Source: Sediminibacterium salmoneum NBRC 103935
GTDB taxonomy: Bacteria; Bacteroidota; Bacteroidia; Chitinophagales; Chitinophagaceae
NCBI RefSeq assembly: GCF_000511175.1
Contig: NZ_KI866530.1
Location: 178,094-242,093 of the forward strand
Reading direction: 5' to 3'
DNA length: 64,000 bases
Part shown: piece after piece, positions 14,169 to 37,011 of the stretch
Position numbering within the stretch: the first letter of the stretch is position 1
Layout: each line of letters opens with the position of its first letter
Notes under the pieces: model-generated
Told to the model about the DNA's origin: nothing
Seen by the model: only the letters and a program-made list of their open reading frames with translations
Databases searched by the model: none
Made by a program: the position numbers and the translations under genes

Positions 14169-14183
14169 TTCCATTTTACACTA

Positions 14184-14207: not shown

Positions 14208-14237
14208 CATTTTTTTGGATTAACTAAATTTTCGTGA

Positions 14238-15323
14238 ATGAAACGTTTTATACATGCCACCCTATTAATGGGTGCAGCTATTATTATTGCATGCAATACC
14301 AAGGAAGAAGCTAAAAAAGAAATCTCCGTTTTTCAAGTTACCAGTCCTGTACAAACAGATACTTTGATCTTAAAAGAATATGTAGCTCAAATTCAGTCTG
14401 TAAATCATATTGAGTTGCGATCTCAGGAAAGAGGATACCTGCAAAAGATATTTGTGGATGAAGGTCAGTTTGTAAAGAAAGGACAGTTGATGTTTCAGAT
14501 TATGCCCAATCTTTATCAGGCTGAAATGCAAAAGGCAAAAGCGGAATTGAATTTTGCTGAAATTGAATACAATAATACCAGAAGTCTTGCTGAAAACAAT
14601 ATTGTATCTCCCAATGAGCTTGCTCTATCTAAGGCAAAGTTAAATAAGGCAAGGGCAGAACTGGCTTTGGCTCAAACACATCTAGATTTCACTGAAATTA
14701 AAGCACCATTTGGTGGAATCATGGATCGCTTCCATACAAGATTGGGGAGTTTAATTGATGAAGGTGAATTGTTAACTACACTTTCTGATAACAATAAAAT
14801 GTGGGTGTATTTTAATGTGCCGGAAGCCGAGTACCTCAATTATATCCAAAAAAATAAGAGAGTTAATTCTGTTAAATTACAATTACAGATGGCTAATAAA
14901 GCCATTTTTGATCAGGAAGGCATAGTTGAAACAATTGAGGCTGATTTTAATAATGAAACAGGTAATATTGCTTTCAGAGCTACATTCCCTAATCCCAAAA
15001 GACTCTTGCGACATGGAGAAACAGGCAATATTTTAATGCCTGTTCCACTCAGGAATGCTATTTTAATTCCACAAAAAGCATCTTTTGAAGTATTGGATAA
15101 AAAGTATGTGTTTGTAGTAGATAAGGACAATATTATTCATTCTCAACAAATTACCGTGGAGGCAGAAATGCCCCATTTGTATGTTGTATCTGCAGGATTG
15201 AAAAGCAGTGACAAGATTTTATTAGATGGTTTGCGCAAAGTAAAAAACGGAGATAAGATTACTACTCAGTTTGCATCACCTAAGAAAGTCTTTGCTGAAT
15301 TGCATGAATTGCATGCAGAATAA
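14238..15323 (+). CDS. RND efflux periplasmic adaptor (membrane fusion) lipoprotein
   Basis: 361 residues. Lipobox IIAC with Cys19 lipid-anchors it to the inner membrane. It then has the standard adaptor order: beta-barrel strand and lipoyl half (SVNHIELRSQERGYLQKIFVDEGQFVKKGQ), a coiled-coil hairpin about residues 90-135, the second lipoyl half (DFTEIKAPFGGIMDR) and the barrel and membrane-proximal domains. It links the inner-membrane pump (next gene, 21 bases on) to the outer-membrane channel. The three genes form one operon. Confidence 0.95.
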   Translation: MKRFIHATLLMGAAIIIACNTKEEAKKEISVFQVTSPVQTDTLILKEYVAQIQSVNHIELRSQERGYLQKIFVDEGQFVKKGQLMFQIMPNLYQAEMQKAKAELNFAEIEYNNTRSLAENNIVSPNELALSKAKLNKARAELALAQTHLDFTEIKAPFGGIMDRFHTRLGSLIDEGELLTTLSDNNKMWVYFNVPEAEYLNYIQKNKRVNSVKLQLQMANKAIFDQEGIVETIEADFNNETGNIAFRATFPNPKRLLRHGETGNILMPVPLRNAILIPQKASFEVLDKKYVFVVDKDNIIHSQQITVEAEMPHLYVVSAGLKSSDKILLDGLRKVKNGDKITTQFASPKKVFAELHELHAE

Positions 15324-15344
15324 TCTCCCATTAAATTAAGACAT

Positions 15345-18300
15345 ATGTTTCAAAAATTTATAAAACGACCAGTGCTGGCGATTGTGATCTCGTTGGCAAT
15401 CATTTTTTTGGGTGTAATGGCAATGGTCACCAGACCTGTATCCCAGTTTCCGGATATTGCACCTCCCCGTGTAATGGTATTTATTGCTTATCCGGGATCT
15501 AGTGCCGATGTGCTTGTTAAATCTGCCCTTATTCCATTGGAAAGAGCCATTAATGGAGTTCAGGGGATGCAATATATAATTTCAGATGCCACAAGTGCAG
15601 GAGAGGCAACCATTCAAATTGTATTTGAGCCCGGAACAGACCCTAATGCAGCTGTAGTAAATGTAAAAACCCGCGTAGATCAGGTGATGAATAATTTACC
15701 TCCTCTTATTCAAAGAGAAGGGGTAGTGATAACTCCTATTCAGCCAAGTATGCTGATGTATGTGAATTTGTATAGTAAAGATAAAAATGCAGATGAAAAG
15801 TTTCTATACAATTATGCAAACGTTAGCGTTTTACCAGAGTTACAGAGAATAAAGGGAATGGGAAGAGCACAAATATTAGGGAGCAGGCAATTTGCAATGA
15901 GGATTTGGCTGAAGCCTGACAGGATGCGCGCTTATAATATTTCTACTGAAGAAGTAATGGAGGCAATGAAAGATCAGAGTGTAATCGGTAGACCTGGTCG
16001 AATTGGGCAGGCTTCAGGTAAAACTGCACAATCGCTAGAATATGTATTGATATATAAAGGACGGTATAATAAGCCTGAGGAATATGAAAATATTATTGTA
16101 CGGGCAAATGCAAGCGGGGAGAATATTAAGTTAAAAGATATTGCGGAAGTAGAATTAGGAAGTGAATTTTTTGATATTTATTCTAATAAAGACGGATATC
16201 CTGCTGCATCTATTGTTTTGAAACAAAACTTTGGAAGTAATGCAAGTAAAGTAATTGAGCAGGTAAAAGTGAAGCTGGAGGAGTTAAAAAAGGATTTTCC
16301 TCCTGGAATGGAGTATGAAATTAACTATGACGTTTCAAAATTTGTTAATGCTTCTATAGATAAAGTTTTACATACACTAGTTGAAGCCTTTCTTCTTGTT
16401 GCGTTAGTTGTTTTTATATTTCTGGGAGATTGGAGGTCTACCTTAATACCAATTATTGCAGTACCAGTTTCTTTAATTGGCACTTTCTTTTTTATGCAAA
16501 TTTTTGGTCTTACTATTAATCTAGTAACCCTGTTTGCACTTGTTTTGGCAATTGGGATAGTTGTAGATGACGCCATTGTTGTTGTAGAAGCAGTTCATGC
16601 TAAAATGCATGAAGAGCATTTATCACCTTTTTCGGCAGTAAAAAAAGTCTTGGGAGAAATTAGTGGGGCGATTATTGCGATTACTTTATTTATGTCGGCT
16701 GTTTTTGTCCCTGTTGCTTTCATGACTGGACCTGTAGGGATATTTTATAGACAATTTTCTATAACGATGTCAAGTGCCATTATACTTTCTGGGATTGTTG
16801 CTTTAACATTAACGCCTGTTCTTTGTGCTATAATTTTAAAAAGTAATCATGATAAAGGTATTAGCAAATCGCCTATTACATTGTTTATTGATTGGTTTAA
16901 TAAGCGTTTTGATATATTAACGGAAAAATATACCAGACTTCTTAATTTAATTGCTAATAGAAGAGTTGTTACTTTTTTAATTCTGCTAATCTTTTGTGCA
17001 GGTATCTTTTTTGTAGATAAAACCTTACCATCTGGCTTTATACCTAATGAGGATCAAGGTATGATTTATGCCATTATTCAAACTCCTCCAGGTTCTACTT
17101 TAGAAACTACAAATGATGTTGCCAGAAAGCTTCAGAAATTAGCGGAAGAAGTAGAAGGGATACAGTCAGTTTCGTCTTTAGCAGGTTACGAGATTTTAAC
17201 AGAAGGACGCGGGTCAAACGCAGGGACATGTCTGATAAATTTAAAAGATTGGTCATTGCGCCATCATTCAGTAAAAGAGATTATTGAAGAGTTGGAGGAA
17301 AAATCAAAAGATTTCGGTGCTGTTATTGAGTATTTTGAACCACCTGCCGTTCCCGGTTATGGTTCTTCAGATGGCTTTTCTTTGCGATTACTCGATAAAA
17401 ATGCAACGGTTGATTATGAAGAATTTGATAAAGTAAATAAAGATTTTATGGCCGCTCTTTACAAGCGTAAAGAGCTAACCGGTTTATTTACTTTTTTCGC
17501 AGCTAATTATCCCCAATATGAGTTGATTATAGATAATGAATTAGCCATGCAAAAAGGCGTTTCTATTGGGAAAGCCATGGATAACCTAGATATACTTCTT
17601 GGCAGTACTTACGAACAAGGATTTGTGCGTTTCAATACTTTCTTTAAAGTATATACACAGTCAGCCCCGGAATATAGAAGACTCCCAAGTGACGTTTTGA
17701 ATCTTTTTATAAAGAACAACAAGGATGAGATGGTTCCTTATTCTTCTTTTATGACATTAAACAAACGGCAAGGACCTAATGAAATTACTAGATTCAATTT
17801 GTATACTTCTTCCTCAATTAAAGGAGTACCGGCAAAAGGATATACAAGCGGAGATGCAATTAATGCCATTCGGGAGGTAGCAAAAGAGACTCTGCCTCAA
17901 GGATATGATATTGCATGGGAGGGACTTTCTTTTGACGAGGCAGATAGAGGGAATGAAGCTTTGTATATTTTTATCGTGGTATTAATATTTGTTTATTTAC
18001 TTCTAGCAGCACAATACGAAAGCTTTATAATACCACTTGCTGTAATTTTTTCTTTGCCCGTTGGCATCTTCGGATCTTTCGTTTTATTAAAATTAATGGG
18101 TCTTGCAAATGATATTTATGCACAGATGGGATTAATTATGCTAATTGGACTACTAGGAAAAAACGCAATTCTGATTGTTGAATTTGCTGTTCAAAAACAC
18201 CAGCAAGGAGCCACTGTTTTAGACGCAACTATTGAAGGTGCTAAAGTTAGATTTCGTCCTATCTTAATGACATCATTTGCATTTGTTGCAGGGTTGATTC

Positions 18301-18575
18301 CACTAGTTGTAGCTCATGGCCCCGGTGCAGATGGTAATAGAACCATTGGTTCTTCTTCTTTAGGTGGAATGCTATTTGGAACTGTTTTCGGTGTGATTAT
18401 TATACCTGGTTTATATTTTATTATGGGTAAAATGGCTGAAGGAAAGCATCTAATCAGGGATGAAGATGAAAGTCCACTGTCAGAACATTATGTAAATAGT
18501 TATAATGACTCCAAACTTTTGCATAAGCTCAAGAAATTATTAAAACGAAATAAGAAAAAGCATGAAGAACAATAA
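15345..18575 (+). CDS. RND multidrug efflux permease (HAE1/AcrB type)
   Basis: 1076 residues, inner-membrane proton-driven pump. Twelve membrane segments in the usual 1+5+1+5 order with two large periplasmic loops. The proton-relay aspartates are Asp408-Asp409 (GIVVDDAIVVVE) and the partner lysine is Lys939 (GLLGKNAILIVEFA); RFRPILMTSFAFV follows as in AcrB. The length and residues suggest a working drug or solvent exporter, not a heavy-metal CusA type. The 3' end overlaps the channel gene by 14 bases. Confidence 0.97.
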   Translation: MFQKFIKRPVLAIVISLAIIFLGVMAMVTRPVSQFPDIAPPRVMVFIAYPGSSADVLVKSALIPLERAINGVQGMQYIISDATSAGEATIQIVFEPGTDPNAAVVNVKTRVDQVMNNLPPLIQREGVVITPIQPSMLMYVNLYSKDKNADEKFLYNYANVSVLPELQRIKGMGRAQILGSRQFAMRIWLKPDRMRAYNISTEEVMEAMKDQSVIGRPGRIGQASGKTAQSLEYVLIYKGRYNKPEEYENIIVRANASGENIKLKDIAEVELGSEFFDIYSNKDGYPAASIVLKQNFGSNASKVIEQVKVKLEELKKDFPPGMEYEINYDVSKFVNASIDKVLHTLVEAFLLVALVVFIFLGDWRSTLIPIIAVPVSLIGTFFFMQIFGLTINLVTLFALVLAIGIVVDDAIVVVEAVHAKMHEEHLSPFSAVKKVLGEISGAIIAITLFMSAVFVPVAFMTGPVGIFYRQFSITMSSAIILSGIVALTLTPVLCAIILKSNHDKGISKSPITLFIDWFNKRFDILTEKYTRLLNLIANRRVVTFLILLIFCAGIFFVDKTLPSGFIPNEDQGMIYAIIQTPPGSTLETTNDVARKLQKLAEEVEGIQSVSSLAGYEILTEGRGSNAGTCLINLKDWSLRHHSVKEIIEELEEKSKDFGAVIEYFEPPAVPGYGSSDGFSLRLLDKNATVDYEEFDKVNKDFMAALYKRKELTGLFTFFAANYPQYELIIDNELAMQKGVSIGKAMDNLDILLGSTYEQGFVRFNTFFKVYTQSAPEYRRLPSDVLNLFIKNNKDEMVPYSSFMTLNKRQGPNEITRFNLYTSSSIKGVPAKGYTSGDAINAIREVAKETLPQGYDIAWEGLSFDEADRGNEALYIFIVVLIFVYLLLAAQYESFIIPLAVIFSLPVGIFGSFVLLKLMGLANDIYAQMGLIMLIGLLGKNAILIVEFAVQKHQQGATVLDATIEGAKVRFRPILMTSFAFVAGLIPLVVAHGPGADGNRTIGSSSLGGMLFGTVFGVIIIPGLYFIMGKMAEGKHLIRDEDESPLSEHYVNSYNDSKLLHKLKKLLKRNKKKHEEQ

Positions 18576-19998
18576 TATCCTGAGTCTGTTGACGGTATTG
18601 TCGGCAGGGCTCATTTTAAATGCTTGTAAATTGCCTGTTATCAGTATAAAAGATACAAATATATCTTTGCCCCTTTTTTATACAGGCACAGCCACTACTG
18701 ATACTTCATTGGCCGGTACAATAGCCTGGCGAAAGTATTTTAATGATCCGTTTCTGATTAGTCTGATTGATACTGCATTACAGAATAACCAGGAATTGCG
18801 AATTATTTTGCAGGAAATTGAAGTTGGTAAAAATGAAGTAAAAGCAAGGAGAGGAGAGTACCTGCCTTTTGTAAATGCCGGTTTTACTACGGGATTTGAA
18901 AAAAGTGGGCAATACACAAGAAATGGTGCAGTTGAAGAAGCATTAGAAATCAAGGAGGGGCACAAATTCCCCAAACCATTACCAGATGTTCTTTTGGCTG
19001 CTAATGCCAGTTGGGAACTAGATGTCTGGAAAAAATTACGAAATGCCAAAAAATCTGCTGTTTTAAGTTATTTAGCATCCATTGAGGGTAAAAATTTTAT
19101 GGTGACTCAATTGGTTTCAGAAATAGCCAGTGCCTATTATGAACTACAGACATTTGATAATTTACTCAATATCTTAAATAGTAGTATTGAGATTCAAAGT
19201 AATACTCTCTCTGTAATTCGAAAAGAAAAAGATGCTGCAAAGGTTTCGCAATTGGCAGTGAATCGTTTTGAAGCACAATTGTTAAATACCCAAAACCTTC
19301 AATATTCCATACGCCAACAGATTGTGGAAACAGAGAACCGGATTCATTTTTTATCGGGGAAATATTTGTCAAAAATTCAAAGATCAGTAATGACAGATAA
19401 TCCCCTTTTACCTGAGCCTTTTACTGCAGGGATTCCTTCCCAACTCTTGCAAAACCGACCTGATTTGAAACAAGCAGCTTTGGAATTAGAGGCTTCCAAA
19501 CTGAATATTGAAGTAGCCAAAGCCAATTTTTATCCATCTTTCCGTTTAACAGCCGGACTCGGTTTTCAATCTTTTAATCCTGTATTCTTGCTTAGCCCGG
19601 CTTCGGTTTTATACAATCTGGCAGGAGATATAACGATGCCTGTAATTAATAGGAATGCCATTCAGGCTATTTACCAGAATGCCAGTGCCAAGCAAATTCA
19701 GGCCGTATATAATTATGAAAGAGCAATATTGAAAGCATATATAGAAGTATTGAACCAATTGAATGGGATTGATAACTATACTAAGAGTTATCAGACTAAA
19801 GAAAGGGAAGTCAATATTCTAAGTAATTCTATTGCCATCTCTAATAATTTGTACAGAGCCGCCAGGGCCGATTATGCTGAAGTTTTACTTACACAGAAAG
19901 AAGCCATTGAGTCTAAGATTGATTTGAACGAAATACAGTTGAAGCAAAAATTAACAAAACTTAATTTATATAAGTCTTTGGGGGGAGGCTGGAATTAG
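18562..19998 (+). CDS. RND outer-membrane channel lipoprotein (TolC/NodT family)
   Basis: 478 residues. Lipobox LNAC with Cys22. Two repeats of the outer-membrane efflux domain: long helices and strands with LLAANASWELDVWKKLRNA in the first half and PSQLLQNRPDLKQAALELEASKLNIEVAKANFYPSF-type pattern in the second, the hallmark NRPD block. It starts 14 bases inside the pump gene, so it is translationally coupled and last in the operon; a strong terminator follows. Confidence 0.95.
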   Translation: MKNNNILSLLTVLSAGLILNACKLPVISIKDTNISLPLFYTGTATTDTSLAGTIAWRKYFNDPFLISLIDTALQNNQELRIILQEIEVGKNEVKARRGEYLPFVNAGFTTGFEKSGQYTRNGAVEEALEIKEGHKFPKPLPDVLLAANASWELDVWKKLRNAKKSAVLSYLASIEGKNFMVTQLVSEIASAYYELQTFDNLLNILNSSIEIQSNTLSVIRKEKDAAKVSQLAVNRFEAQLLNTQNLQYSIRQQIVETENRIHFLSGKYLSKIQRSVMTDNPLLPEPFTAGIPSQLLQNRPDLKQAALELEASKLNIEVAKANFYPSFRLTAGLGFQSFNPVFLLSPASVLYNLAGDITMPVINRNAIQAIYQNASAKQIQAVYNYERAILKAYIEVLNQLNGIDNYTKSYQTKEREVNILSNSIAISNNLYRAARADYAEVLLTQKEAIESKIDLNEIQLKQKLTKLNLYKSLGGGWN

Positions 19999-20012
19999 TG
20001 TTTTTTTGGGTA

Positions 20013-20047
20013 ACTACCTCCATCGTAGATCGTTGGAGGTGGTTTTT
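20013..20047 (+). terminator. Rho-independent terminator of the RND operon
   Basis: ACTACCTCCA (20013-20022) pairs with TGGAGGTGGT (20034-20043) with one G-U pair and an 11-base loop, and is followed by TTTTT. The rest of the gap to 20201 is AT rich and shows no gene. Confidence 0.85.
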
Positions 20048-20201
20048 AATTATTTTTATATAATTCCTGTGTTCTATGCGTAATATACTTTATCATAAAT
20101 ATTCCGATTTGTGTTGACAGGGCTTGTTTTTTTAGGTGTTTTCTTTTTCATGAATATAATAATTCAAGTTGTTTTGCCATTTCCAATCATTAAGTGATAA
20201 G

Positions 20202-20486
20202 ATGAAGCCATTTCTTGCTTTTGCTATTGCAGTTGGAGTAGCCAAAATAATATGGATACCTACCGAGCGGGTTAAATCTCCGGTTGCTACTTATGGAGTA
20301 ATTGGAGCTTTTGTAGTGGGAAGCATAGGATTTATTGGAGGTTTTTTGGGCCCCATTATTTTAAGGCCGGAATCACCTCAAGGGCCACTGCTTGGAATTT
20401 TTTTCACGGGTCCAATCGGATTTGTTGTCAGTTTAGTTGGTGGTATTGTTTACGGGTTAAAAATGGAAAAGAGACAGCGTAAGTAG
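20202..20486 (+). CDS. Small glycine-rich membrane protein of unknown function
   Basis: 94 residues from ATG 20202, with three hydrophobic segments: FLAFAIAVGVAKIIW, TYGVIGAFVVGSIGFIGGFLG and GFVVSLVGGIVYGL, and a short basic tail. No family recognised. An upstream TTG (20169) in frame is less likely. The glycine pattern in the second helix would allow tight helix packing. It stands in front of another unknown membrane protein 65 bases downstream. Confidence 0.6.
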   Translation: MKPFLAFAIAVGVAKIIWIPTERVKSPVATYGVIGAFVVGSIGFIGGFLGPIILRPESPQGPLLGIFFTGPIGFVVSLVGGIVYGLKMEKRQRK

Positions 20487-20550
20487 ATTTTACAGTTGGC
20501 TGACGGATGATTCGTCTGTATAATTCAATTTTGTTTTACAGAATTGCACT

Positions 20551-21225
20551 ATGAAAAATTACATTGAATACATCCCCATTTTTACAACAATTTTTTCAGT
20601 TTACTTTTTCAAAGAAATATTCAGTCATTATCAATATCGGAAAACTACGTATTTGTTATGGTGGTCTTTAGGTGTTTTGACGTTCGGTTTGGGAACTTTG
20701 GCAGAGAGTATTAATATGCTGATTGGATGGAGTATCTCAAACGTTCGTTATTGGTACATTGTGGGTGCATTATTAGGAGGCTTTCCCTTGGCTCAGGGGA
20801 GTGTCTACTTGTTAATGAAGAGAAGATTCGCTGATATTTCCAGTATTTTAATTGTGATATTGATTGTTGTTGCATCGGTATTTGTTGTCTTAACTCCTGT
20901 TTCAATTCCAGACAATTTCAATTATAAGTTAACCGGAAAAGTATTTGAATGGAAATGGGTTCGATATTTTTCTCCCTTAATTAATATTTATGCGTTTTTA
21001 TTCCTGGTAGGAGGAGCTTTTTATTCTGCTATTAGATACTATCGGCAGGGGATAAAAGAAGCCCCTTTTCGGGGTAATATTTTTATTGCTGTAGGTGGGT
21101 TGTTGCCGGGTATAGGAGGATCTTTTACCCGAGCCGGATATGTTGAAGTTTTATATGTAACAGAATTTATAGGACTGATACTTATTTATTACGGGTATAG
21201 AATTATCAAAATGAATAAGGCTTAA
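20551..21225 (+). CDS. Seven-helix membrane protein of unknown function
   Basis: 224 residues with about seven hydrophobic segments, starting YIPIFTTIFSVYFFKEIF. TFGLGTLAESINMLIGWS and GGLLPGIGGSFTRAGY are conspicuous but I cannot assign a family. The seven-helix count and a charged second segment recall small sensor-type membrane domains, which is only a guess. A short hairpin (GACG/CGTC) lies in the gap before it. Confidence 0.65.
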   Translation: MKNYIEYIPIFTTIFSVYFFKEIFSHYQYRKTTYLLWWSLGVLTFGLGTLAESINMLIGWSISNVRYWYIVGALLGGFPLAQGSVYLLMKRRFADISSILIVILIVVASVFVVLTPVSIPDNFNYKLTGKVFEWKWVRYFSPLINIYAFLFLVGGAFYSAIRYYRQGIKEAPFRGNIFIAVGGLLPGIGGSFTRAGYVEVLYVTEFIGLILIYYGYRIIKMNKA

Positions 21226-21279
21226 AATGGAAAAGAATATTCTTGGTTTTCTTATATTTATAGCATAAAGCTATAAAAA

Positions 21280-22872
21280 ATGCGGAAAATTTTATTATTT
21301 ATAGTTCTGGGTTGTTTCTTTACACTCAATGCACAAAATTATTCTAAAATAACGGATCGCCTTAATAGCTATAATCCTTTACAGATGGTGAGGATGACTT
21401 CTTCATCCTTTTTAATGAAGCATGTGTATCAGCTGGAAAAGGATCAGAAGTTTCTGGATAAGCTAACTGATTATGAAAAGTTATCCAAGGGATTGGCTAA
21501 AGATATCGCTAAAATGGTTTCGCGAAATGATTGGCCTGCATGGATAAAAGATGGCATTGATGATACAGAGGAGCTAATTTTTAAACAATTGGTTGGGGTA
21601 TTGTTGTCTAATTACAAATATTACAATAATGATGTACTAATAGCATTTCATCCTGATTTGAATTTTCAATTACCTGAGAAATATAAGTTTAAAGAGACAT
21701 TCTATTTTAAAGTAGATAACCAATATAATTTTGACGAAATTAATCCAAAGACAGATAATAGTTCTACAATCAATCAGGCCAATATTGCCCGATGGCACGA
21801 AGAATTAATGACGAAATATAAAAACGTCAAACCTTTAAATTGGAAAGCAAAATCCAATTGGATTTTTCATTATTCGGCTGAAACAATTGCAGGGCATAAA
21901 TTTTTACGGGATGGTATAAGTATTTTGGAAGCCCGCAAAATAGTTAAGGGTACTAGTATTAATCCATATTATTTAGTGGAATTTTCCCGGGAAAAGAATT
22001 ACCCAATGGGCTTGAGTTGGAGTAGCACGGATTTTTTGAATTCATTGAACATTCTGGAACTGTCTTCAGAAATTTCAGGCTATGAGTACGATCTTACAAA
22101 GGATGAACATAAGATTGAAAAGACAATCTATTATTATATCCCCGAAAAGGAAAATCCTCAATTCAAGGGAATAGTTGCCGTAAGTCCCAATAAAGGCGTA
22201 TTTGGGACAATTAAAGTCTTATATCCACTGGGTGATACTGCTTTAAAATATGATCGGATAGATGTGTCAAAATTGAAGAAACCGACGACTAATAAACACA
22301 CTGTATTTTCTATCCCTCCCTCAAAAAGAGGCAAATTCTCTATATTAATTCAGGATTACGTAAATCAGTTTCAAAATTATGGAAAGGGAGGAATTATTTC
22401 TAAAATCACGGATGGAACAGTTAGGGAGATTTACTGGAACGATCAAATTGGCGAATACGGAACAGATACGCTCTTGATAAATGAAAAAACAGGTAAAATA
22501 TCTTATTGGGCTTATATGTCTCCTTACAAGGATACAGGTCTTTCGTTTCAGCAGTGTAAAGATATTTCAAGTGACCTTTTTTATATCCTTATTCGTAATA
22601 ATCATTTTGCGGGTATGGATGGGTTTAGTGTGACCAGAAAACCGGAAATTAAAGTGGAGGGTGAAAAGGAGTTGAAAGGGAAGGAGGCTGTTCTAGGCAA
22701 ATATGTAACACAGTATTATTTTGCCCATTCAACCGATTTTGATACCAATTATGCTTATGATAGAACAATTGCTAGTAAGTATGTTAACAATCTTAGAATA
22801 AGAGTATTGATAAAGCCAATCGATGAAAAAAACGATAAGTACTATGTTTATTTATTGTTTTTTGAGCCTTAA
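21280..22872 (+). CDS. Large secreted protein of unknown function
   Basis: 530 residues. Clear signal peptide (MRKILLFIVLGCFFTLNAQ). No membrane segment after it, so periplasmic, outer-membrane attached or secreted. The body is lysine and aromatic rich, with a repeated tyrosine-rich strand pattern (YYYIPEKENPQFKGIVAV, YYVYLLFFEP at the C-terminus). No catalytic motif or family recognised. Its stop shares the palindrome TTAA with the convergent LysR gene, leaving no room for a terminator. Confidence 0.7.
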   Translation: MRKILLFIVLGCFFTLNAQNYSKITDRLNSYNPLQMVRMTSSSFLMKHVYQLEKDQKFLDKLTDYEKLSKGLAKDIAKMVSRNDWPAWIKDGIDDTEELIFKQLVGVLLSNYKYYNNDVLIAFHPDLNFQLPEKYKFKETFYFKVDNQYNFDEINPKTDNSSTINQANIARWHEELMTKYKNVKPLNWKAKSNWIFHYSAETIAGHKFLRDGISILEARKIVKGTSINPYYLVEFSREKNYPMGLSWSSTDFLNSLNILELSSEISGYEYDLTKDEHKIEKTIYYYIPEKENPQFKGIVAVSPNKGVFGTIKVLYPLGDTALKYDRIDVSKLKKPTTNKHTVFSIPPSKRGKFSILIQDYVNQFQNYGKGGIISKITDGTVREIYWNDQIGEYGTDTLLINEKTGKISYWAYMSPYKDTGLSFQQCKDISSDLFYILIRNNHFAGMDGFSVTRKPEIKVEGEKELKGKEAVLGKYVTQYYFAHSTDFDTNYAYDRTIASKYVNNLRIRVLIKPIDEKNDKYYVYLLFFEP

Positions 22873-23768
22873 TACTTTTCACTCCAGCTGAATATTTCTC
22901 TAGCAATTTGGTTTTTCTCCTGCTTAAGATAATGCAGATAAGCTTCAGCAACCGGGGAGTGTTTTTTACCTTTTAGCCAAATCAAACTCCAGGTAGTCTT
23001 AACCGGCATGCCTTTTACGGGAATGATGAATAGCTGTTTATTCATCAGTTCATTTTTTATTCCAATAATTGGCATGATGGAATATCCTAATCCTGCAATA
23101 ATAGCTTGTTTTACAGCTTCATTAGTGCTCAATTCCATTTTTTTTAGGACGGAAAGTTTTTTCTTCTGGATAAACTGTTCCATTGCTTGTCGGGTTCCGG
23201 ATCCCTTTTCCCGAAAAATCAATGGCAGGTCTTCAATATTACTGTTTGTTTTTTCATTACCTATCAGGAACAATTTATTGGGGAGTAAATCTATCTTTTC
23301 AATGTTAATGGCTGCTGGTAAAATGGATACTAATGCAAAATCTATTTCGTTTTTCTCAAGGCTTTCAATCACTTTCGATTTATTGGTTACATCCATATTC
23401 AACTGGACGCCGTTATTTTTATGCATGAATCCGGATAGAAAATAGGGCATTACATATTTGCCTGTGGACACAACCGCGATTTTTAGTTTCCCGGTCATTT
23501 GCCCTTTATAAGCCAGTGTTTTGTTATTTATGGCATTAACCTGATAAATAATATTTTCTGCAGAAACGGCAATTTCTCTGCCAAAATCAGTAATGTGTAT
23601 TTTTCTGCCCAGCACTTCTGTTAAGGGAATATCAAACTGATCCTGGAAGTTTTTTAACTGAATGGAAACAGCAGGTTGTGTTAAATGGAGTTCTTCCGCT
23701 GCCTTGGTTATACTTTCCGTTTCTACAATCTTTAAAAATATCTGTAGTTGATTTAAGGTATAATTCAT
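22869..23768 (-). CDS. LysR family transcriptional regulator
   Basis: 299 residues. The N-terminal winged helix-turn-helix is clear (LNQLQIFLKIVETESITKAAEELHLTQPAVSIQLK, with the recognition helix around residues 28-47), followed by a two-lobed substrate-binding domain. It is divergent from a four-gene unit containing an SbtA-type transporter, the arrangement in which LysR proteins usually control the neighbour in response to a ligand. In cyanobacteria and autotrophs LysR proteins (CmpR, CcmR, CbbR) control carbon uptake; a similar role here is inference. Confidence 0.93.
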   Translation of the reverse strand: MNYTLNQLQIFLKIVETESITKAAEELHLTQPAVSIQLKNFQDQFDIPLTEVLGRKIHITDFGREIAVSAENIIYQVNAINNKTLAYKGQMTGKLKIAVVSTGKYVMPYFLSGFMHKNNGVQLNMDVTNKSKVIESLEKNEIDFALVSILPAAINIEKIDLLPNKLFLIGNEKTNSNIEDLPLIFREKGSGTRQAMEQFIQKKKLSVLKKMELSTNEAVKQAIIAGLGYSIMPIIGIKNELMNKQLFIIPVKGMPVKTTWSLIWLKGKKHSPVAEAYLHYLKQEKNQIAREIFSWSEKY

Positions 23769-23776
23769 AAAAATAA

Positions 23777-23787
23777 CTTATGATAAG
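23777..23787. promoter_or_regulatory. Candidate LysR operator
   Basis: CTTAT-G-ATAAG is a perfect inverted repeat in the 89-base divergent gap between the LysR gene and the SbtA unit, 9 bases from the LysR start. It sits where an autoregulatory LysR box would lie. The surrounding DNA is very AT rich, so chance is possible. Confidence 0.4.
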
Positions 23788-23857
23788 CATTATAAAGATA
23801 AATAAAAAATATAGATTACTTCTCCTCAAATTTGCACCGTTAAATAATTGAATATTT

Positions 23858-24040
23858 ATGAAAAAGAGGGATTGGCAAATAATGGTTGGATTGATTGTGT
23901 TCTTAAGTACTATTCTGATTTCATTTAAATCGGATAATCCTATCAACAGTCAATTATGGTCTTCGCTTTCAGTTATTACCGCTGTTTTTACTATTCATCA
24001 CCAGGTAAGTTCGCCTAAAAATGAAAATACGCATGAATAA
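23858..24040 (+). CDS. Small membrane protein, first gene of the SbtA unit
   Basis: 60 residues with one long hydrophobic stretch (WQIMVGLIVFLSTILISF, about 6-23) and a second weaker one (SLSVITAVFTIHH). No family recognised. It is kept because it is closely packed with the next gene (overlap) and starts the unit divergent from LysR. It is not a PII-like SbtB regulator, which would be about 100 residues and soluble. Confidence 0.5.
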   Translation: MKKRDWQIMVGLIVFLSTILISFKSDNPINSQLWSSLSVITAVFTIHHQVSSPKNENTHE

Positions 24041-24539
24041 TCGCCTTTTTATTGTTTGCCCGTTTTCTAATTTAGAATACACCCTTAAGAAACAATACGG
24101 TCAGGATTCGCATTTCCTTTCAGTACCTGCAGGGCTCATTTCAGCGAACGATAACATTTTTCTGGATAATCTGAAAAGGGTTACTACTGCAAATAGTATC
24201 AGTGAAATTTACGTAACCAATGAAGTGTCTAACAGTTTTGTGCTCTCTGTAATGAATGATACCTATAAGCGTGATATAGCATTTTTAAACCCGGTTGCTG
24301 ATTTAAAAGAGGAATTCTGGATGGAGAGATTTGCGGGTTTAACACCCAGGCAGCAGATTCTTAAAATGGCTGAACTGATTGTTGAACTTTCTGTAGAATC
24401 GCTGCAGTCTTCTCTGGTTTCTATAAATGTTGAATCTGCTCAGTCCTTAACAGTAAGGGGTATTGTACTATCTAAAGAAGCTGGATTCTTAAAAGAGCTG
24501 AAGAAAATGAATCGCTATAAAATTGCTTATGGACTTTAA
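24021..24539 (+). CDS. Soluble protein of unknown function in the SbtA unit
   Basis: 172 residues from ATG 24021, or 168 from ATG 24033, which overlaps the previous stop by only 8 bases and may be the better start. No signal peptide or membrane helix. Alternating hydrophobic strands and helices (RLFIVCPFSNLEYTL, SEIYVTNEVSNSFVLSV, QQILKMAELIVELS, SLTVRGIVLSKEAGFLKEL) suggest an alpha/beta fold. It overlaps the transporter gene by 11 bases, so it probably works with it. I considered beta-carbonic anhydrase because of the context, but the zinc-binding Cys-Asp-x-Arg and His-x2-Cys motifs are absent. Confidence 0.65.
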   Translation: MKIRMNNRLFIVCPFSNLEYTLKKQYGQDSHFLSVPAGLISANDNIFLDNLKRVTTANSISEIYVTNEVSNSFVLSVMNDTYKRDIAFLNPVADLKEEFWMERFAGLTPRQQILKMAELIVELSVESLQSSLVSINVESAQSLTVRGIVLSKEAGFLKELKKMNRYKIAYGL

Positions 24540-25491
24540 TTTACTGCTGGAAAACCTAACCAATCCGGCTTTGTTGTTTTTTATACTTGGAATTGTTGCT
24601 GTTTGTGTTAAAAGTGATCTGGAAATTCCCAACAATTCTTCCAAATTTATTTCTCTCTATTTGTTATTCGCCATTGGATTCAAAGGTGGTCAGGAATTGT
24701 CTCATGAACAATTCAATCTTGAAATATTGGGAACCATGTTAATGGGGGTTGCCATTTCTGTATTTATTCCGGCTTATACTTTCTTTATTTTAAAAAAGCG
24801 GTTAGGTATTTTTAATGCAGGTGCTATTTCAGCGTCTTACGGTTCTGTAAGTGCTGTTACTTTTGTAACGGCAGTTTCTTATTTGGAAGCACATCAATTA
24901 AATCTGCATGGTCATATGGTGGCCATTATGGCATTAATGGAATCGCCTGCTATTATTGTGGGGCTTTTATTAATCAATTTCTTTAACACTGAAGAGGCAA
25001 GTACAATTAAAAAGAGAGAAGTTTTTAAGCATTCTTTTACCAATGGATCTGTATTACTGATACTAGGTAGTTTGTTTATTGGATTTGTAGCTGATGCCAA
25101 ACAGGCTGAAGGTATTAAGCCTTTTACCAATGATTTATTTAAAGGATTTCTGGCTATTTTTTTATTGGATATGGGTATAACCAGTGGTAAGAAATTAAAG
25201 GCTTTCTTTTCATTTGGATTATTTCCCTTTTTATTCGCCTTCCTGATTCCATTAATGAATGGGGTTGTTTTTGCCTATATTAGTTCACTGGTTACAGATG
25301 ATATCAGTAATCGTTTTGTGATTGCCATACTAGCTGCAAGTGCATCTTATATTGCGGTTCCGGCTGCCATGAAAATTTCCGTTCCTAAGGCAAATCCTGG
25401 TTTGTTTTTACCAATGGCATTGGCGGTTACCTTTCCTGTAAACATAACGATAGGGATGCCCCTGTACTTTTTTGTTGTACAACATACTTGA
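24529..25491 (+). CDS. Sodium-dependent bicarbonate transport family permease (SbtA type)
   Basis: 320 residues from ATG 24529 (TTG 24523 is two codons earlier and less likely), with about ten hydrophobic segments in two halves. NPALLFFILGIVAVCVKSDLEIP, LLFAIGFKGGQEL and SASYGSVSAVTFVTAVSYLE, then the second half IAILAASASYIAVPAAMKISVPKANPGLFLPMALAVTFP-like pattern, match the Sbt_1 family of sodium/bicarbonate symporters. It likely imports bicarbonate with sodium. No carbon-fixation gene is in the window, so its use may be anaplerotic carboxylation or pH balance. It lies in a unit of four genes opposite LysR. Confidence 0.88.
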   Translation: MDFNLLLENLTNPALLFFILGIVAVCVKSDLEIPNNSSKFISLYLLFAIGFKGGQELSHEQFNLEILGTMLMGVAISVFIPAYTFFILKKRLGIFNAGAISASYGSVSAVTFVTAVSYLEAHQLNLHGHMVAIMALMESPAIIVGLLLINFFNTEEASTIKKREVFKHSFTNGSVLLILGSLFIGFVADAKQAEGIKPFTNDLFKGFLAIFLLDMGITSGKKLKAFFSFGLFPFLFAFLIPLMNGVVFAYISSLVTDDISNRFVIAILAASASYIAVPAAMKISVPKANPGLFLPMALAVTFPVNITIGMPLYFFVVQHT

Positions 25492-25532
25492 CAAAATCAT
25501 TTAGACGGGGTATATTTAGTAAAATTACTTTT

Positions 25533-25910
25533 ATGAAGCATAAAATTCTAAATATACTATCAATACTTTGTGCCTTATTGTTTCTGAACGGGGGCTTTAA
25601 TAAGTTGTTTAATTACATCCCCGTACCTACAGATTTGCCCCCTGCTTTGGTGGCTGACAATGCTGCATTCATGGAAATAGAGTGGCTGATGCCTTTAGTG
25701 GCTGTTATAGAAATTTTGGGTGGGTTGCTTTTAATATTCAGAAAGACAAGGGCAATTGGCGCATTAGTAATTTTCCCAATCATGTGCGGTATTTTGTTGA
25801 TTCATGCCACTGTTGCACCAAGTGGTTTGCCATTGGCAATTGGTTTATCTTGTATTCTTGGCTGGATTATGATAGAGAATAAAAACAAATATTTGTCTTT
25901 ATTAGATTGA
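25533..25910 (+). CDS. DoxX-like membrane protein
   Basis: 125 residues from ATG 25533, four hydrophobic segments. LLFLNGGFNKLFNYI, WLMPLVAVIEILGGLLLIFRKTRAIGALVIFP and the closing amphipathic tail fit the DoxX/DoxD-like family, whose members are quinone-linked or redox-associated membrane proteins of mostly unknown role. A TTG at 25488 would extend it but is unlikely. It is the last gene before the terminator at 25908-25939. Confidence 0.8.
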   Translation: MKHKILNILSILCALLFLNGGFNKLFNYIPVPTDLPPALVADNAAFMEIEWLMPLVAVIEILGGLLLIFRKTRAIGALVIFPIMCGILLIHATVAPSGLPLAIGLSCILGWIMIENKNKYLSLLD

Positions 25911-25939
25911 TTCCTAGTAATAAAGGAATCATTCTTTTT
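25908..25939 (+). terminator. Rho-independent terminator of the SbtA unit
   Basis: TGATTCCT (25908-25915) pairs with AGGAATCA (25924-25931) and is followed by TTCTTTTT. The left arm includes the DoxX stop codon. Confidence 0.8.
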
Positions 25940-26010
25940 CATATGTTTTAAATTGGCACAATATTGGCTCCTGAGTTGATACTTTTTTGTATTCATCCAA
26001 AACGAGCCTT

Positions 26011-27387
26011 ATGATAACTGTAATTATTCCCACATTAAATGAAGAAGAGACTATACAAAGTGTTATTCAGTTTGCATGGTCGCAACCCCAGGTAACCGAA
26101 GTGGTAGTGGTTGATGATAAGTCTATTGATGCAACTGTTGCCATTGCTGTAGCTAACGGTGCTAAAGTAATAACCAGTACAAAATTGGGTAAAGGGTCTT
26201 CTATGAAAGACGGGGTTTTGTTTGCCTCTAATCCTATCGTTGCATTTCTGGATGGTGATATAGATCCTTATCCGCATTATACTATTAAATTGTTAACTGA
26301 TCCTATTTTAAATGGGGAAGTTGATTTTGTAAAATCCTCCTTCAGCAGAAATGCCGGCAGGGTAACTGAATTGGCCGCCAAACCACTGTTGAGTATTTTT
26401 TTTCCTGAATTATTAAGGTTCAGTCAGCCACTAAGCGGAATGATAGCAGGTAAGAAAAAGTTGCTGGAACAACTGGATTTTCGTGAGGATTACGGGGTGG
26501 ATATTGGTATTTTAATAGACATGTATCTGATGAATGCAAAAATGAAAGAAGTAGAAATTGGATACATAGAAAATAAAAGTAAACCCTGGCAGGCTTTAGG
26601 AAAAATGAGTAAAGAAGTAGCTCAGACTATTATTGTTAAAGCGGCCAATTCTAATAATCCCAGGTATAATTTTGAAGAACTGGGTGTGCTAAATGAAATC
26701 AGAACCCAAATGGAACTGGCGTTAAGCGCCAATCTGGGTTCTATGGAAAAACTGATTGTATTTGATATGGACAATACTTTGTTGCGAGGCAGATTTATAG
26801 ATGCCTGTGCTGAAAGATTCGATTTTAAAACATCACTGATGAATATCAGGTCCTCTGAGAGTAATCCGATTTTGCTTACCAAACATATTGCTACCCTTTT
26901 AAGGGGAAAGACTCACCAGGAATTAATTGAGCTTGCCGACCAGATTCCCGTTGTAGATGGAACAGCTGAAATAATAAAGGAACTGAAAGACAGAGGATAT
27001 ATTATTGGTATTATCTCTGATAGTTATGATTGTATTACCCATCATGTAAAAAATAAATTGGGAATGGATTTTTCATTGTCGAATGAACTTGAGTTTTCTA
27101 AAGGTGTTTGTACAGGAGAAGTGAAAATTCCCTCTTTTTTATTTAACAATGGAAAAAGTGTATGCCGGCATTCACTTTGTAAGACCAATGCAGTACTTAG
27201 CTTATTGGAAAAATATCAGATTCCCAAAGAAAATTGTATTGCCATAGGGGATAGTATGAATGATCTTTGCATGATTAAAGAAGCGGGTCTGGGAATTGCT
27301 TTCTGTTCACAGGATGAATTATTGAATCATCATGCAGATATCATTCTGAAAGAACAAAGTTTTGCTGAATTGCTTTCTATTGCATAG
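26011..27387 (+). CDS. Fused family-2-like glycosyltransferase (GpgS-like) and HAD phosphatase
   Basis: 458 residues in two domains. Residues 1 to about 215: nucleotide-sugar glycosyltransferase with IPTLNEEETI, VVVVDDKSIDAT and the metal-binding FLDGDID (81-83). GRVTELAAKPLLSIFFPEL, QPLSGMIAGKKK and YGVDIGILID match the glucosyl-3-phosphoglycerate synthase (GpgS/GT81) pattern. Residues about 245-458: SerB-like HAD phosphatase with FDMDNT (Asp252, Asp254), ISDSYD and GDSMND. If both work in sequence the product would be glucosylglycerate, a compatible solute. This is inference; the substrate is not proven. A TTG at 25987 in frame is not preferred over ATG 26011. Confidence 0.85.
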   Translation: MITVIIPTLNEEETIQSVIQFAWSQPQVTEVVVVDDKSIDATVAIAVANGAKVITSTKLGKGSSMKDGVLFASNPIVAFLDGDIDPYPHYTIKLLTDPILNGEVDFVKSSFSRNAGRVTELAAKPLLSIFFPELLRFSQPLSGMIAGKKKLLEQLDFREDYGVDIGILIDMYLMNAKMKEVEIGYIENKSKPWQALGKMSKEVAQTIIVKAANSNNPRYNFEELGVLNEIRTQMELALSANLGSMEKLIVFDMDNTLLRGRFIDACAERFDFKTSLMNIRSSESNPILLTKHIATLLRGKTHQELIELADQIPVVDGTAEIIKELKDRGYIIGIISDSYDCITHHVKNKLGMDFSLSNELEFSKGVCTGEVKIPSFLFNNGKSVCRHSLCKTNAVLSLLEKYQIPKENCIAIGDSMNDLCMIKEAGLGIAFCSQDELLNHHADIILKEQSFAELLSIA

Positions 27388-27492
27388 CTTATTTAGATAT
27401 TGTCAGAATAGACGAGCGCGAAGTATTTTAATGGTTTTTTGTTTAAATTTAATTGAGTTTACCTACAGTTCACATTAAAATCTGCACAAGTC

Positions 27493-28155
27493 TTGAATAA
27501 TTTCTTCACCATTCTTCCCGACCTGATTGGGACTTTTGCCTTTGCCATGAGTGGCATTAAAATGGCTTCCCGAAAAAATGTTGACTGGTTTGGGGCATTT
27601 ATGATTGGACTAGTTACTGCCATTGGTGGAGGAACAGTGAGGGATTTATTGTTAGATGTAACTCCTTTCTGGATGCTTGATAGCCGCTATTTTATTACTA
27701 CCGGTGTTGCTTTGCTGGCAACTTTGGTTTTTAAGGAAAAACTGATGCGCTGGACCAATACCCTTTTTTTATTTGATACCATAGGATTGGGATTGGTTAC
27801 GATTATCGGTATTTCCAAATGTATGGATGCCGGCTTTCCTTTCTGGGTTTGTATTGTTATGGGAACCATCACTGGTTCTATAGGAGGCGTATTAAGAGAT
27901 GTTCTGTTAAATGAAGTTCCCTTACTATTACAAAAAGATATCTATGCAATGGCATGTGTGATTGGTGGTCTGTCATATTTTTTGTTATTGGAAATAAATA
28001 TGACGAAAGATTTGGCTGCGCCTCTTGCTGCAATCATTGTGATGCTGGTAAGATTGATTGCCATTCAGTTTCATATTCATTTACCTGTATTAAAATCTGT
28101 TCACGACAAAGAAGCTGATGATTCATTTCTTAATAATAAACCTCCCCAACAATGA
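27493..28155 (+). CDS. TRIC-type (YicG/UPF0126) cation channel protein
   Basis: 220 residues, seven hydrophobic segments in two three-helix repeats plus one. Each repeat carries the family's glycine-rich RD motif: GGGTVRDLL in the first and GGVLRDVLL in the second. Prokaryotic members are trimeric potassium-permeable channels; the family also had the older name UPF0126. The start is TTG, right at the usual N-terminus. It overlaps the next gene through ATGA, so both are probably coupled. Confidence 0.9.
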   Translation: MNNFFTILPDLIGTFAFAMSGIKMASRKNVDWFGAFMIGLVTAIGGGTVRDLLLDVTPFWMLDSRYFITTGVALLATLVFKEKLMRWTNTLFLFDTIGLGLVTIIGISKCMDAGFPFWVCIVMGTITGSIGGVLRDVLLNEVPLLLQKDIYAMACVIGGLSYFLLLEINMTKDLAAPLAAIIVMLVRLIAIQFHIHLPVLKSVHDKEADDSFLNNKPPQQ

Positions 28156-34367: not shown

Positions 34368-34424
34368 TAACTAAAAAAATAGTTAAATAACTAAAAAATT
34401 AGTTGTTAAACTAAATATTTAGTT
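34368..34424. promoter_or_regulatory. Triple BlaI-type operator between lpxB and the BlaI gene
   Basis: Three copies of AACTA-N6-TAGTT lie at 34369-34384, 34389-34404 and 34409-34424. Their centres (34376.5, 34396.5, 34416.5) are exactly 20 bases apart, about two helical turns, so repressor dimers would sit on one face of the DNA. They fill the divergent gap just ahead of the BlaI start. Autoregulation by BlaI family repressors at inverted repeats is established; the exact sites here are inferred. Confidence 0.75.
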
Positions 34425-34451
34425 ATAAGTTTACTCCTGTAAATGTACATC

Positions 34452-34814
34452 ATGAAACCATTAACCAAAGCAGAAGAGCAAATAATGCAAACCATCTGGA
34501 AGCTGGAAAGCGCTTTCCTGAAAGACATTATTGATGCACAACCCGAACCAAAGCCGCATAGCAATACCATTGCTACGATTGCAAAGATCTTAGTAGATAA
34601 AGGATTTGTTGGTGTGAATCAAATTGGAAGGGTGCATCAATATTTTCCAATTGTAACCAAAGAGGAATATTCTTCCAGTACCATTCGTAATTTAGTGGAA
34701 GGGTATTTTGAAGGGTCTTTTGCCGATGCGGTTTCCTTTATGGTAAAACAAAAAGACATCAGTGTAAAAGAGCTGGAGTTGTTATTGCAGGAAATGAAAA
34801 AATCTAAAAAATAA
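34452..34814 (+). CDS. BlaI/MecI-family transcriptional repressor
   Basis: About 120 residues with an N-terminal winged helix: KPLTKAEEQIMQTIWKLES, then HSNTIATIAKILVDKGFV and the wing HQYFPIVTKEEY. The C-terminal helices form the dimer. These repressors are inactivated by proteolysis by a partner M56 membrane protease, here the next gene (5-base gap). The ATG at 34443 would add three residues; 34452 matches the usual start. Both lie directly behind the triple operator. Confidence 0.93.
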   Translation: MKPLTKAEEQIMQTIWKLESAFLKDIIDAQPEPKPHSNTIATIAKILVDKGFVGVNQIGRVHQYFPIVTKEEYSSSTIRNLVEGYFEGSFADAVSFMVKQKDISVKELELLLQEMKKSKK

Positions 34815-34818: not shown

Positions 34819-37011
34819 ATGCAAACCACCATTTATTATTTTCTTCAGGTAGTTTTTTGCTCTGCCATTATGATGGGGTATTACTGGCTTGTGTTGCGCG
34901 ATAATAAATTCCATCAATACAATAGATTCTATTTGTTGGCGATTGCTGTACTATCCTGGCTGATACCTTTAATTAAAATTCAATGGAACGAAAGCACTTT
35001 CACAGGGGATGACAATATTTATTATTTGCTTTCAGCTGTAGCATCTAACAATACCGAACTCGAATCTAGTTTCAGTCAGCATTGGTATTCTATTACCTGG
35101 CAGAGGGGATTACAACTGCTGTATATCGGAGGCGTATCTGTTTTGTTTGTCAGTCTGATGATTTCATTGATTCGCATTTTTCAGCTACTAAAGCAGAGTA
35201 GTGCAAAAAAACTGGGTACGATTGATTTAATCATGACCAATGCTAAAGGAACACCTTACTCATTCTTCCAATTTATATTCTGGAACGAAGCCATTGATTT
35301 AAGCAGTGCAACGGGTCAGCAAATTTTGCAGCATGAAATTACACACGTAAAAGAAAAGCACTCTTTTGATAAGCTATTGATGCAATGCATTTTGATTGCA
35401 GGCTGGATGAATCCGGTTTTCTGGCTAATTAAAAAAGAATTACACATGATTCATGAGTTTATTGCGGATAAAAAATCTGTTGAGAGTGGAGATACTGCAT
35501 CCTTGGCTCAAATGTTATTGACTACTGCCTATCCTCAACAAACCTTCAAGTTAACCAACCCCTTCTTTTTTTCACCTATCAAAAGACGTATTGCCATGTT
35601 AAGTAAATCCAACACAAGATTCAGCTACCTAAGAAGACTAATTGTATTGCCCTTATTGGCCATTATTGTAGTATTGGTGGCTTTCAGAAATGCACTTCCC
35701 ACAGAACCCATATCAGTTGAAACAGTTGTAAAAACCATTTATAAAGATGTTGCCGGCAGGCCTGTTGCGGCCATCTCACCCATGGCTGTTAATTTGAAAA
35801 ACGATTACACCATTGTCATCAATGCAGGACATGGTGGGGCAGATAAAGGTAGTGTTGGGGTTGATGGTAAATCAGTTGAATCTCAATTGACACTTGAACT
35901 GGCCAAAACCATCCAATCCCTGAACCAAAATAGTCGTTTGAATCTGTTTTTAACAAGAACAGAAGATGAAACACAGTCCTTAATGGAAATTGCTCAAAAA
36001 GCCAATAAATCAAACCCGGATTTGTTTTTGTCACTGCACTATAATGCAGCCAAGAATGCAAACCTTTCCGGAACCGAAATTTATATTGCCAGTCCGGGTA
36101 AAACCGATCGTTACAATAGTCATTTACAGTTTGCCAATCAGGTGGCCAATCAAGTGGATGATTTGAGTTTGCCTTTTAATGGAATCAAGAGCAGGAAAGA
36201 TGGGATATACGTGTTACAAAACATCAGTTGTCCCAGCATTCTTATTGAAGCAGGATATATGAGTAATCCCAAGGATTTGGAAAAAATTACTTCCACCAGT
36301 TTCAGAGAGTCATTGGCAGTTGCCATTTTGAATGGTGTTCAGAAATATCTGGCGGATAAGGAGAACAATCTAACCTTGGCTGTAGCAACACAAAATGATG
36401 ATTTTAACAATTCCGGAAAGGATACCCTTAAACTACTAGTTAAGAAAGTTGAATCTGAGGCAGGTAAATTGTCTTTTGATTCAGTGAGGTCATTTTCTTT
36501 TAGTAAAAGTGCTGAAGGTTTGGGTAGTGGCTTAAAATTATTTGCAAAAAACGGACAAAAGCCGCTAGTTGTTTTAAATGGGAAACAAGTAGAATATGAA
36601 ATTTTGAATGAGATGAATCCCAATGAAATTGTATCAATTACTGTGCTGAAAAATGAGGCAGCTATTTCAAAATATGGGGCTGAAGGTGGTAATGGTGTAT
36701 TAGAAGTTGTAACAAAAGATGCTAATCTAAAAAGCATTAAACCAATTCAGGAAGAAGATAATAATGATAGGTCTGGAATAAAATCATTTATGCGGCGCAA
36801 TAAAGATGTCTCAAATGTTTCATGGAATCATCAGTACAAAACCATGGAAATCAAGCTTAAAGATGGTACTGAAGAAAAATATATTCTCAATAATCAAACG
36901 AGTATGAGAAGAGCTGAAGCCAAGTATGGAAAACTTCCAATTCCTGCTCCTCCGCCACCACCTACTCCAGCTCCGGCTAAGTTAGATCCCAATAAATATG
37001 AACCTCTATAA
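34819..37011 (+). CDS. M56 (BlaR1-like) membrane protease fused to an N-acetylmuramoyl-L-alanine amidase
   Basis: 730 residues. Residues 1 to about 290: M56 peptidase with four membrane segments, zinc motif HEITH (172-176) and third ligand Glu213 in HEFIAD. Residues about 330-515: Amidase_3 domain with all active-site residues, His338 (INAGHGG), Glu354, His407 (SLHYN) and Glu477 (IEAGYMSNP). Residues about 570-650 resemble the TonB-plug-like tail common in Bacteroidota M56 proteins (NPNEIVSITVLKNEAA, GGNGVLEVVTKD). A proline-rich C-terminus follows. The amidase would lie in the periplasm. It pairs with the BlaI repressor 5 bases upstream. Confidence 0.9.
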   Translation: MQTTIYYFLQVVFCSAIMMGYYWLVLRDNKFHQYNRFYLLAIAVLSWLIPLIKIQWNESTFTGDDNIYYLLSAVASNNTELESSFSQHWYSITWQRGLQLLYIGGVSVLFVSLMISLIRIFQLLKQSSAKKLGTIDLIMTNAKGTPYSFFQFIFWNEAIDLSSATGQQILQHEITHVKEKHSFDKLLMQCILIAGWMNPVFWLIKKELHMIHEFIADKKSVESGDTASLAQMLLTTAYPQQTFKLTNPFFFSPIKRRIAMLSKSNTRFSYLRRLIVLPLLAIIVVLVAFRNALPTEPISVETVVKTIYKDVAGRPVAAISPMAVNLKNDYTIVINAGHGGADKGSVGVDGKSVESQLTLELAKTIQSLNQNSRLNLFLTRTEDETQSLMEIAQKANKSNPDLFLSLHYNAAKNANLSGTEIYIASPGKTDRYNSHLQFANQVANQVDDLSLPFNGIKSRKDGIYVLQNISCPSILIEAGYMSNPKDLEKITSTSFRESLAVAILNGVQKYLADKENNLTLAVATQNDDFNNSGKDTLKLLVKKVESEAGKLSFDSVRSFSFSKSAEGLGSGLKLFAKNGQKPLVVLNGKQVEYEILNEMNPNEIVSITVLKNEAAISKYGAEGGNGVLEVVTKDANLKSIKPIQEEDNNDRSGIKSFMRRNKDVSNVSWNHQYKTMEIKLKDGTEEKYILNNQTSMRRAEAKYGKLPIPAPPPPPTPAPAKLDPNKYEPL

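Follow-up and report, generated by a model that had tools for sequence, protein, structure and literature searches.

Penicillin resistance in Staphylococcus is switched on by a BlaR1-type membrane protease, and BlaR1 is the textbook case of a receptor that passes on an outer signal by destroying a repressor directly. The head known from BlaR1 binds antibiotics, and this sensor resembles class D beta-lactamases. In the sections of the BlaR1 study used here, both the N- and the C-terminus lie outside and the protease is directed towards the cytosol, the outer loop EL1 enters the sensor cleft, the M56 motif is defined by HExxH and ExxxD, the autocleavage bond is Ser283-Phe284 inside LSHSF, and the P1' Phe of BlaI is almost invariant (PMC9834060). 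The same sections present a BlaR homologue of M. tuberculosis that has the M56 protease and a BlaI partner without the beta-lactam sensor; they describe no equivalent sensor domain for it (PMC9834060), whereas the protein reported here carries an amidase.

With regard to the amidase, LytH-ActH of S. aureus (7tj4, Z 26.6) is similar to our protein as a membrane-associated Amidase_3 of the short type, but LytH needs the separate membrane protein ActH, whereas the amidase here is fused to a repressor-associated protease. LytH perhaps acts on uncrosslinked peptidoglycan only, according to the portion of PMC8496864 drawn on here. CwlD of C. difficile (CwlD-GerS, 7rag) is likewise of the short type and shares the amidase fold, the active-site layout and the lack of an autoinhibitory helix. 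On the other hand, CwlD is activated by a lipoprotein partner, and that system contains no protease or repressor. The zinc ligands of CwlD are His49, Glu65 and His133 and its catalytic Glu is Glu199, as given in the same portion (PMC8496864).

In a full-text literature search, which covered titles and the starts of abstracts and left subscription journals mostly outside, no description of an M56-amidase fusion or of BlaI-M56 in Bacteroidetes was found. The BlaR1-type plan is already known; by titles and abstract starts, an amidase module in the place of its head appears undescribed. Domain databases may list the M56-Amidase_3 architecture.

The M56-Amidase_3 fusion and its predicted topology

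In the window, i.e. the whole 64,000-nucleotide stretch of Sediminibacterium salmoneum NBRC 103935 that was analysed, the first-pass annotation had read a BlaR1-like M56 part (HEITH plus HEF) followed in the same chain by an amidase with four active-site residues and then by a plug-like tail. Our analysis bears this out (Table 1). Both domains lie in one frame, with Pfam scores of 36 bits for Peptidase_M56 (residues 162-261; cut-off 31) and 144.3 bits for Amidase_3 (PF01520; cut-off 27). In the AlphaFold model of the fusion (40-row alignment, mean pLDDT 76.9), residues 4-251 match S. aureus BlaR1 (8exs; Z 16.4, rmsd 3.9, 217 aligned) and residues 327-515 match a C. difficile amidase (4rn7; Z 29.5, rmsd 1.4, 183 aligned), while the pTM of 0.48 makes the relative placement of the domains and their contacts unreliable. 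Moreover, the profile of the M56 part matches BlaR1 8exp at E 8.5e-5, pairing LTNPF with LSHSF, and both M56 zinc motifs, HExxH and ExxxD, are present.

Table 1. Features of the fusion operon and the separate amidase of the same genome (window positions, except where a locus is named).
Feature	Position	Strand	Remark
Operator 1 (putative BlaI site)	34369..34384	.	AACTAAAAAAATAGTT, palindrome AACTA-N6-TAGTT
Operator 2 (putative BlaI site)	34389..34404	.	AACTAAAAAATTAGTT, 20 bp after operator 1
Operator 3 (putative BlaI site)	34409..34424	.	AACTAAATATTTAGTT, 20 bp after operator 2
blaI, Penicillinase_R-family repressor	34443..34814	+	123 aa; only PF03965 match in the genome
M56-Amidase_3-plug-like fusion ORF	34819..37011	+	730 aa, single uninterrupted frame
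Outer loop in place of BlaR1 EL1	34972..35094	+	residues 52-92; 1 basic, 5 acidic
HEITH, M56 zinc motif	35332..35346	+	residues 172-176
EFIAD, second M56 motif ExxxD	35455..35469	+	residues 213-217, within HEFIAD 212-217
LTNPF	35551..35565	+	residues 245-249, aligned with BlaR1 autocleavage stretch LSHSF
Last transmembrane helix	35635..35688	+	residues 273-290, model and hydropathy; all that follows predicted outside
Amidase_3 domain	35812..36342	+	residues 332-508; includes H338, E354, H407, E477
SusC/RagA plug-like stretch	36517..36699	+	residues 567-627, under Pfam cut-off
Stand-alone periplasmic amidase	L002 1537-2472	-	311 aa

The locus resembles BlaR1-BlaI and MecR1-MecI in its HExxH and ExxxD motifs, the fold of residues 4-251, the membrane helices, the predicted outer C-terminus, LTNPF for LSHSF, the neighbouring Penicillinase_R repressor and the palindromic operators. 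It differs from them in that Amidase_3 replaces the penicillin-binding sensor, that no resistance gene was seen in the operon, that the operator is AACTA-N6-TAGTT and that a second target was not found in the genome. The fusion is not BlaR1 proper, since it lacks the penicillin-binding head and scores 26.3 bits with the NCBIfam model blaR1_generic, whose cut-off is 400.

Hydropathy marks helices at about residues 7-27, 34-57, 96-127 and 266-300, with a further segment at 186-205. The stretch 201-272 contains 11 basic and 5 acidic residues, and the amidase lies some 37 residues past the last helix. Hydropathy and charges, together with the similarity to BlaR1, predict that the amidase part is on the outer (periplasmic) side and disfavour a cytoplasmic amidase.

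All four claimed active-site residues of the amidase are in place. By analogy with CwlD, as described in the portion of PMC8496864 used here, H338, E354 and H407 would occupy the zinc-ligand positions and E477 that of the catalytic Glu. A dead amidase in the window protein is ruled out at the level of its sequence, since the full set is present. The stand-alone amidase of the same genome has the same four residues but is unfused and has a longer catalytic domain.

In Pfam, Plug (PF07715) reaches 18.4 bits on the tail, below the gathering cut-off of 23.9. The tail is called plug-like from two other matches: the SusC/RagA model TIGR04056 gives 39.8 bits on residues 578-639, far under its whole-protein cut-off, and plug segments of RagA/SusC proteins match residues 566-641 in the PDB search, the best being RagA 6sm3 at E 7.6e-6. 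TonB_C (PF03544) gave no match in the window fusion up to E 0.1. At residues ~651-705 there is a conserved module with the approximate pattern FxxxNxDVKxVxW ... KDGTEExYxLxN ... RAExKYGxLP, then prolines, for which no Pfam match is listed in the window fusion; it also occurs in other family proteins (e.g. L061, L083, L048), between the plug-like repeats and TonB_C.

Elsewhere in the window, positions 8001-28000 have a G+C content of 34-37%, compared with 38-42% in the flanks, and a positive GC skew. This stretch contains transporter genes and, at 14238-19998, a presumed RND-type efflux set.

BlaI and its putative operators

The first-pass annotation had supposed a repressor partner, and a Penicillinase_R gene is indeed found directly upstream, with 4 bases between the end of blaI and the fusion ORF. 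Its product scores 95.1 bits (Pfam cut-off 22.6) and matches MecI (1okr) at E 9.4e-10. We compared 121 loci, namely 112 full fusions, the cut-off fusion L052 and eight amidase-free loci, and blaI is immediately upstream in 115 of them. Two of the other six (L053, L079) are near contig ends; the remaining four (L267, L276, L285, L294) are fusions without adjacent blaI despite the presence of flanking DNA.

The three operators of the window are putative BlaI sites. When up to one mismatch to AACTA-N6-TAGTT was allowed, two sites were found before 84 of the 115 blaI genes, three before 25, one before 2 and none before 4, i.e. at least two ahead of 109 of 115, which makes 245 sites, and the spacing was exactly 20 bp in 72 of 134 cases. 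Shuffling gave 2300 control stretches, of which 69 contained a single site and none contained two.

In the whole genome of the window there are five exact single sites (19 for the reversed control), three of which belong to this operon. The two sites away from it are one within an ORF and one, at 2698951, in a short frame about 170 bp before an ORF. An exact genome-wide scan gave no second tandem pattern, which, being exact, leaves room for diverged BlaI targets in the genome, and the PF03965 search gave no second blaI. As far as exact sites show, the regulation by this BlaI seems confined to the operon that encodes it.

We also scanned 40 chosen fusion genomes for the exact tandem pattern. 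It was present in 39 (G068 had no exact match) and in 28 was located at the fusion operon only. The other 11 have 14 additional tandem places, which taken together do not exceed chance, since the reversed control pattern gave 13 matches. Four of these places adjoin other M56 genes (L386, L394, L395, L398); the remaining ones are by unrelated genes, three of them by presumed TonB-dependent receptor ORFs (L391-L393) and one inside an ORF (L399). On the exact tandem pattern, a wider BlaI regulon found no support, with no further place in the window's genome and 14 against 13 for the control in the 40 fusion genomes. Ten amidase-free genomes, in which the best match goes no further than the M56 part, have the tandem pattern solely at the blaI-M56 operon (four control matches).

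Two arrangements deserve mention. At L391, L392 and L393, from three large genomes, the distance from the tandem operator-like site to the following ORF is 10-50 bp; this ORF, of 736-739 aa, is presumably a TonB-dependent receptor, and the sites may be distal BlaI targets or chance. In G070 and G141 (L240 1094-6250 and L063 2172-7009), a tandem operator precedes a 797-aa ABC-permease-like ORF, which is followed by blaI and then by the fusion, and a divergent ATPase ORF stands there, which we assume to resemble FtsE.

Distribution and conservation of the fusion

A search of M56 proteins for Amidase_3 fusions, as the first-pass annotation had suggested, shows that the fusion recurs in at least 123 of 394 sampled Chitinophagaceae genomes, a lower bound since three candidates were scored per genome. 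The objection that the fusion is a local annotation artefact falls with this number and with the one open frame, and a chance fusion is excluded likewise. At E 1e-115, at least 147 of the 394 genomes matched with 148 rows, of which 123 (in 123 genomes) extend into the amidase and 25 end with the M56 part; two of the 123 fusion rows have stops inside the match. Outside Chitinophagaceae, at least three fusions (G512, G425, G370) are among the matches listed for 395 genomes across the phylum, and further named fusion loci come from two Pedobacter, Flavobacterium denitrificans and two Flammeovirgaceae MAGs.

Of the 112 full fusions that we compared, 109 come from the 123 family rows, and the other three (L295-L297) belong to different families. 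With the cut-off L052, 110 of the 123 family rows were used. Those left out are G079, G089, G108, G122, G191, G204, G212, G262, G266, G705, G732, G753 and G758, two of which have stops within the match. In all 112, the protease residues H172, E173, H176 and E213 and the amidase residues H338, E354 and H407 are invariant, and D217 of the second M56 motif is invariant in the two alignments inspected. F249 in LTNPF is Phe in 103 of the 112.

For ten pairs, dN/dS was 0.04-0.23 in the amidase part and 0.06-0.16 in the M56 part, with some dS values saturated; by this measure the amidase domain of the fusions is evolving under purifying selection. That the fusion serves as the housekeeping amidase is ruled out, because this genome has a separate amidase, as have 111 of 117 genomes of the family.

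In the M56 tree, built with FastTree (180 rows, 122 of them labelled fusion, with a few duplicates among these), amidase-free rows fall within the window's own group. Parsimony counts 21 changes between fusion and no fusion, or 13 on well-supported branches alone, which speaks against a single origin of the fusion; owing to a long-branch warning, we limit the claim to repeated gain, loss or exchange.

A putative envelope switch and the role of the amidase

As our best reading, tenable if somewhat short of probable, we tentatively propose a self-regulating envelope switch that follows the layout of BlaI-BlaR1 and has a membrane-tethered wall amidase for its outer module. BlaI would keep the operon off. 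The signal would be a cell-wall condition at the periplasmic face of the inner membrane. In the simplest case, stem peptides of peptidoglycan would enter the amidase cleft; we guess at uncrosslinked ones because LytH may act on such material (PMC8496864, in the portion used here). In other members, plug-like or TonB_C parts would take the signal. The signal would activate the cytosol-facing protease, leading to self-cleavage at the LTNP-F loop and then to cleavage of BlaI, so that the derepressed operon would yield more amidase-protease. The amidase would trim the wall material that raises the signal and close the loop, and it would thereby be input and output both. One observation on the repressor counts against this scheme: where the alignment places the Phe of MecI, presumably at the cleaved bond, BlaI has Phe in just 22 of 115 family members, Met in 62, including the BlaI of the window, and Leu in 31.

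The amidase was first taken to be a sensing head different from that of BlaR1. The replacement of the penicillin-binding domain stands, but the claim that the amidase is the one sensing head is not supported: eight amidase-free orthologues lie between lpxB and surE, the same locus as that of the window fusion, with blaI adjoining each and the M56 protease motifs intact. Since these orthologues keep the switch, the amidase is optional rather than indispensable. No convincing amidase relics were found in 15 amidase-free proteins (best E 0.014, L048).

The amidase might thus be a regulated product only, with sensing by the loop in place of EL1, by the plug-like repeats or by TonB_C, and with M56 and BlaI setting its amount. 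Besides the persistence of the switch without amidase, this unlikely but serious alternative is favoured by Pfam counts on 40 full family proteins, in which M56 was found in 40, Amidase_3 in 32, TonB_C in 28 and Plug (E 0.01) in 25 (regular expressions clearly under-count these modules), by the finding that the operon itself is the sole target detected in the genome of the window, and by the retention of Glu at position 477 in 103 of the 112 fusions. On the other hand, 31 of the 112 fusions are shorter than 530 aa, with hardly anything beyond the amidase, which is then the main outer module; the window protein has no TonB_C match; and a pure effector should not drop its catalytic Glu nine times with every zinc ligand kept. 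Because the amidase makes up nearly the whole outer part in the short fusions and the metal site outlasts the Glu, the amidase is probably more than a product. Yet the only blaI target found is its own operon, so the amidase may be output as much as input.

The same modules bear on another role of the amidase, as a peptidoglycan-binding or wall-clearing anchor that lets the plug-like and TonB_C parts span the wall, with neither sensing nor regulation. The frequency of these parts in the set would suit an anchor, as would zinc ligands that are invariant when the catalytic Glu is not. However, in the short fusions the amidase occurs with nothing behind it, and TonB_C and plug modules are found without amidase, and we regard the anchor as improbable.

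Position 477 is Glu in 103 of the 112 fusions; in the other nine it is Gln (4), Ala (2), His (1), Gly (1) or Asn (1). When mapped on the fusion tree (FastTree), the nine losses count as nine changes, the zinc site being retained each time, and none of 50 separate amidases of the family lacks any of the four active-site residues. These losses might suggest that the amidase is everywhere a catalytically spent binding domain, an enzyme-derived receptor like the BlaR1 sensor. We give little credence to this, since most fusions keep the Glu, the window protein has the full residue set, and the contrast itself, 9 of 112 compared with 0 of 50, is borderline at about 0.03 one-sided. It is also weak as a control, because mean identity is higher among the separate amidases (0.49) than among the fusion amidases (0.36). 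Catalysis is probably used in most fusion members, and it need not be what is sensed, because the nine members without it keep the metal site.

To return to the envelope switch, peptidoglycan would probably be sampled through the membrane-anchored amidase. A closed-loop wall homeostat would go with this, in which an active hydrolase reads peptidoglycan, the inner end destroys the repressor, the sole transcriptional output is the system itself, and the sensed event is substrate binding or turnover; we consider it possible but doubtful. If it were true, a BlaR1-type receptor would report the state of the wall (e.g. uncrosslinked strands from blocked synthesis) and not a drug.

Across a Gram-negative family, the BlaR1 chassis is found again and again with its head replaced by a conserved wall enzyme. 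The natural pairs with and without amidase at one locus should make it testable whether BlaR1-type receptors read the state of peptidoglycan, and they also bear on how receptor heads get exchanged. The short, self-contained operon with its clear operator is a handy experimental object.

Two side observations concern close relatives. L223 and L091 are close by M56 sequence; one of the pair is a fusion with Gln for the catalytic Glu and the other is amidase-free, possibly a pair on the way to amidase loss. Between the window and its nearest relative, L237, the amidase DNA (35801-36300) is 96-99% identical and much of the surrounding DNA about 81-97%, and dS is 0.06 in the amidase and 0.44 in the M56 part, which hints that the amidase module recombined between these close relatives.
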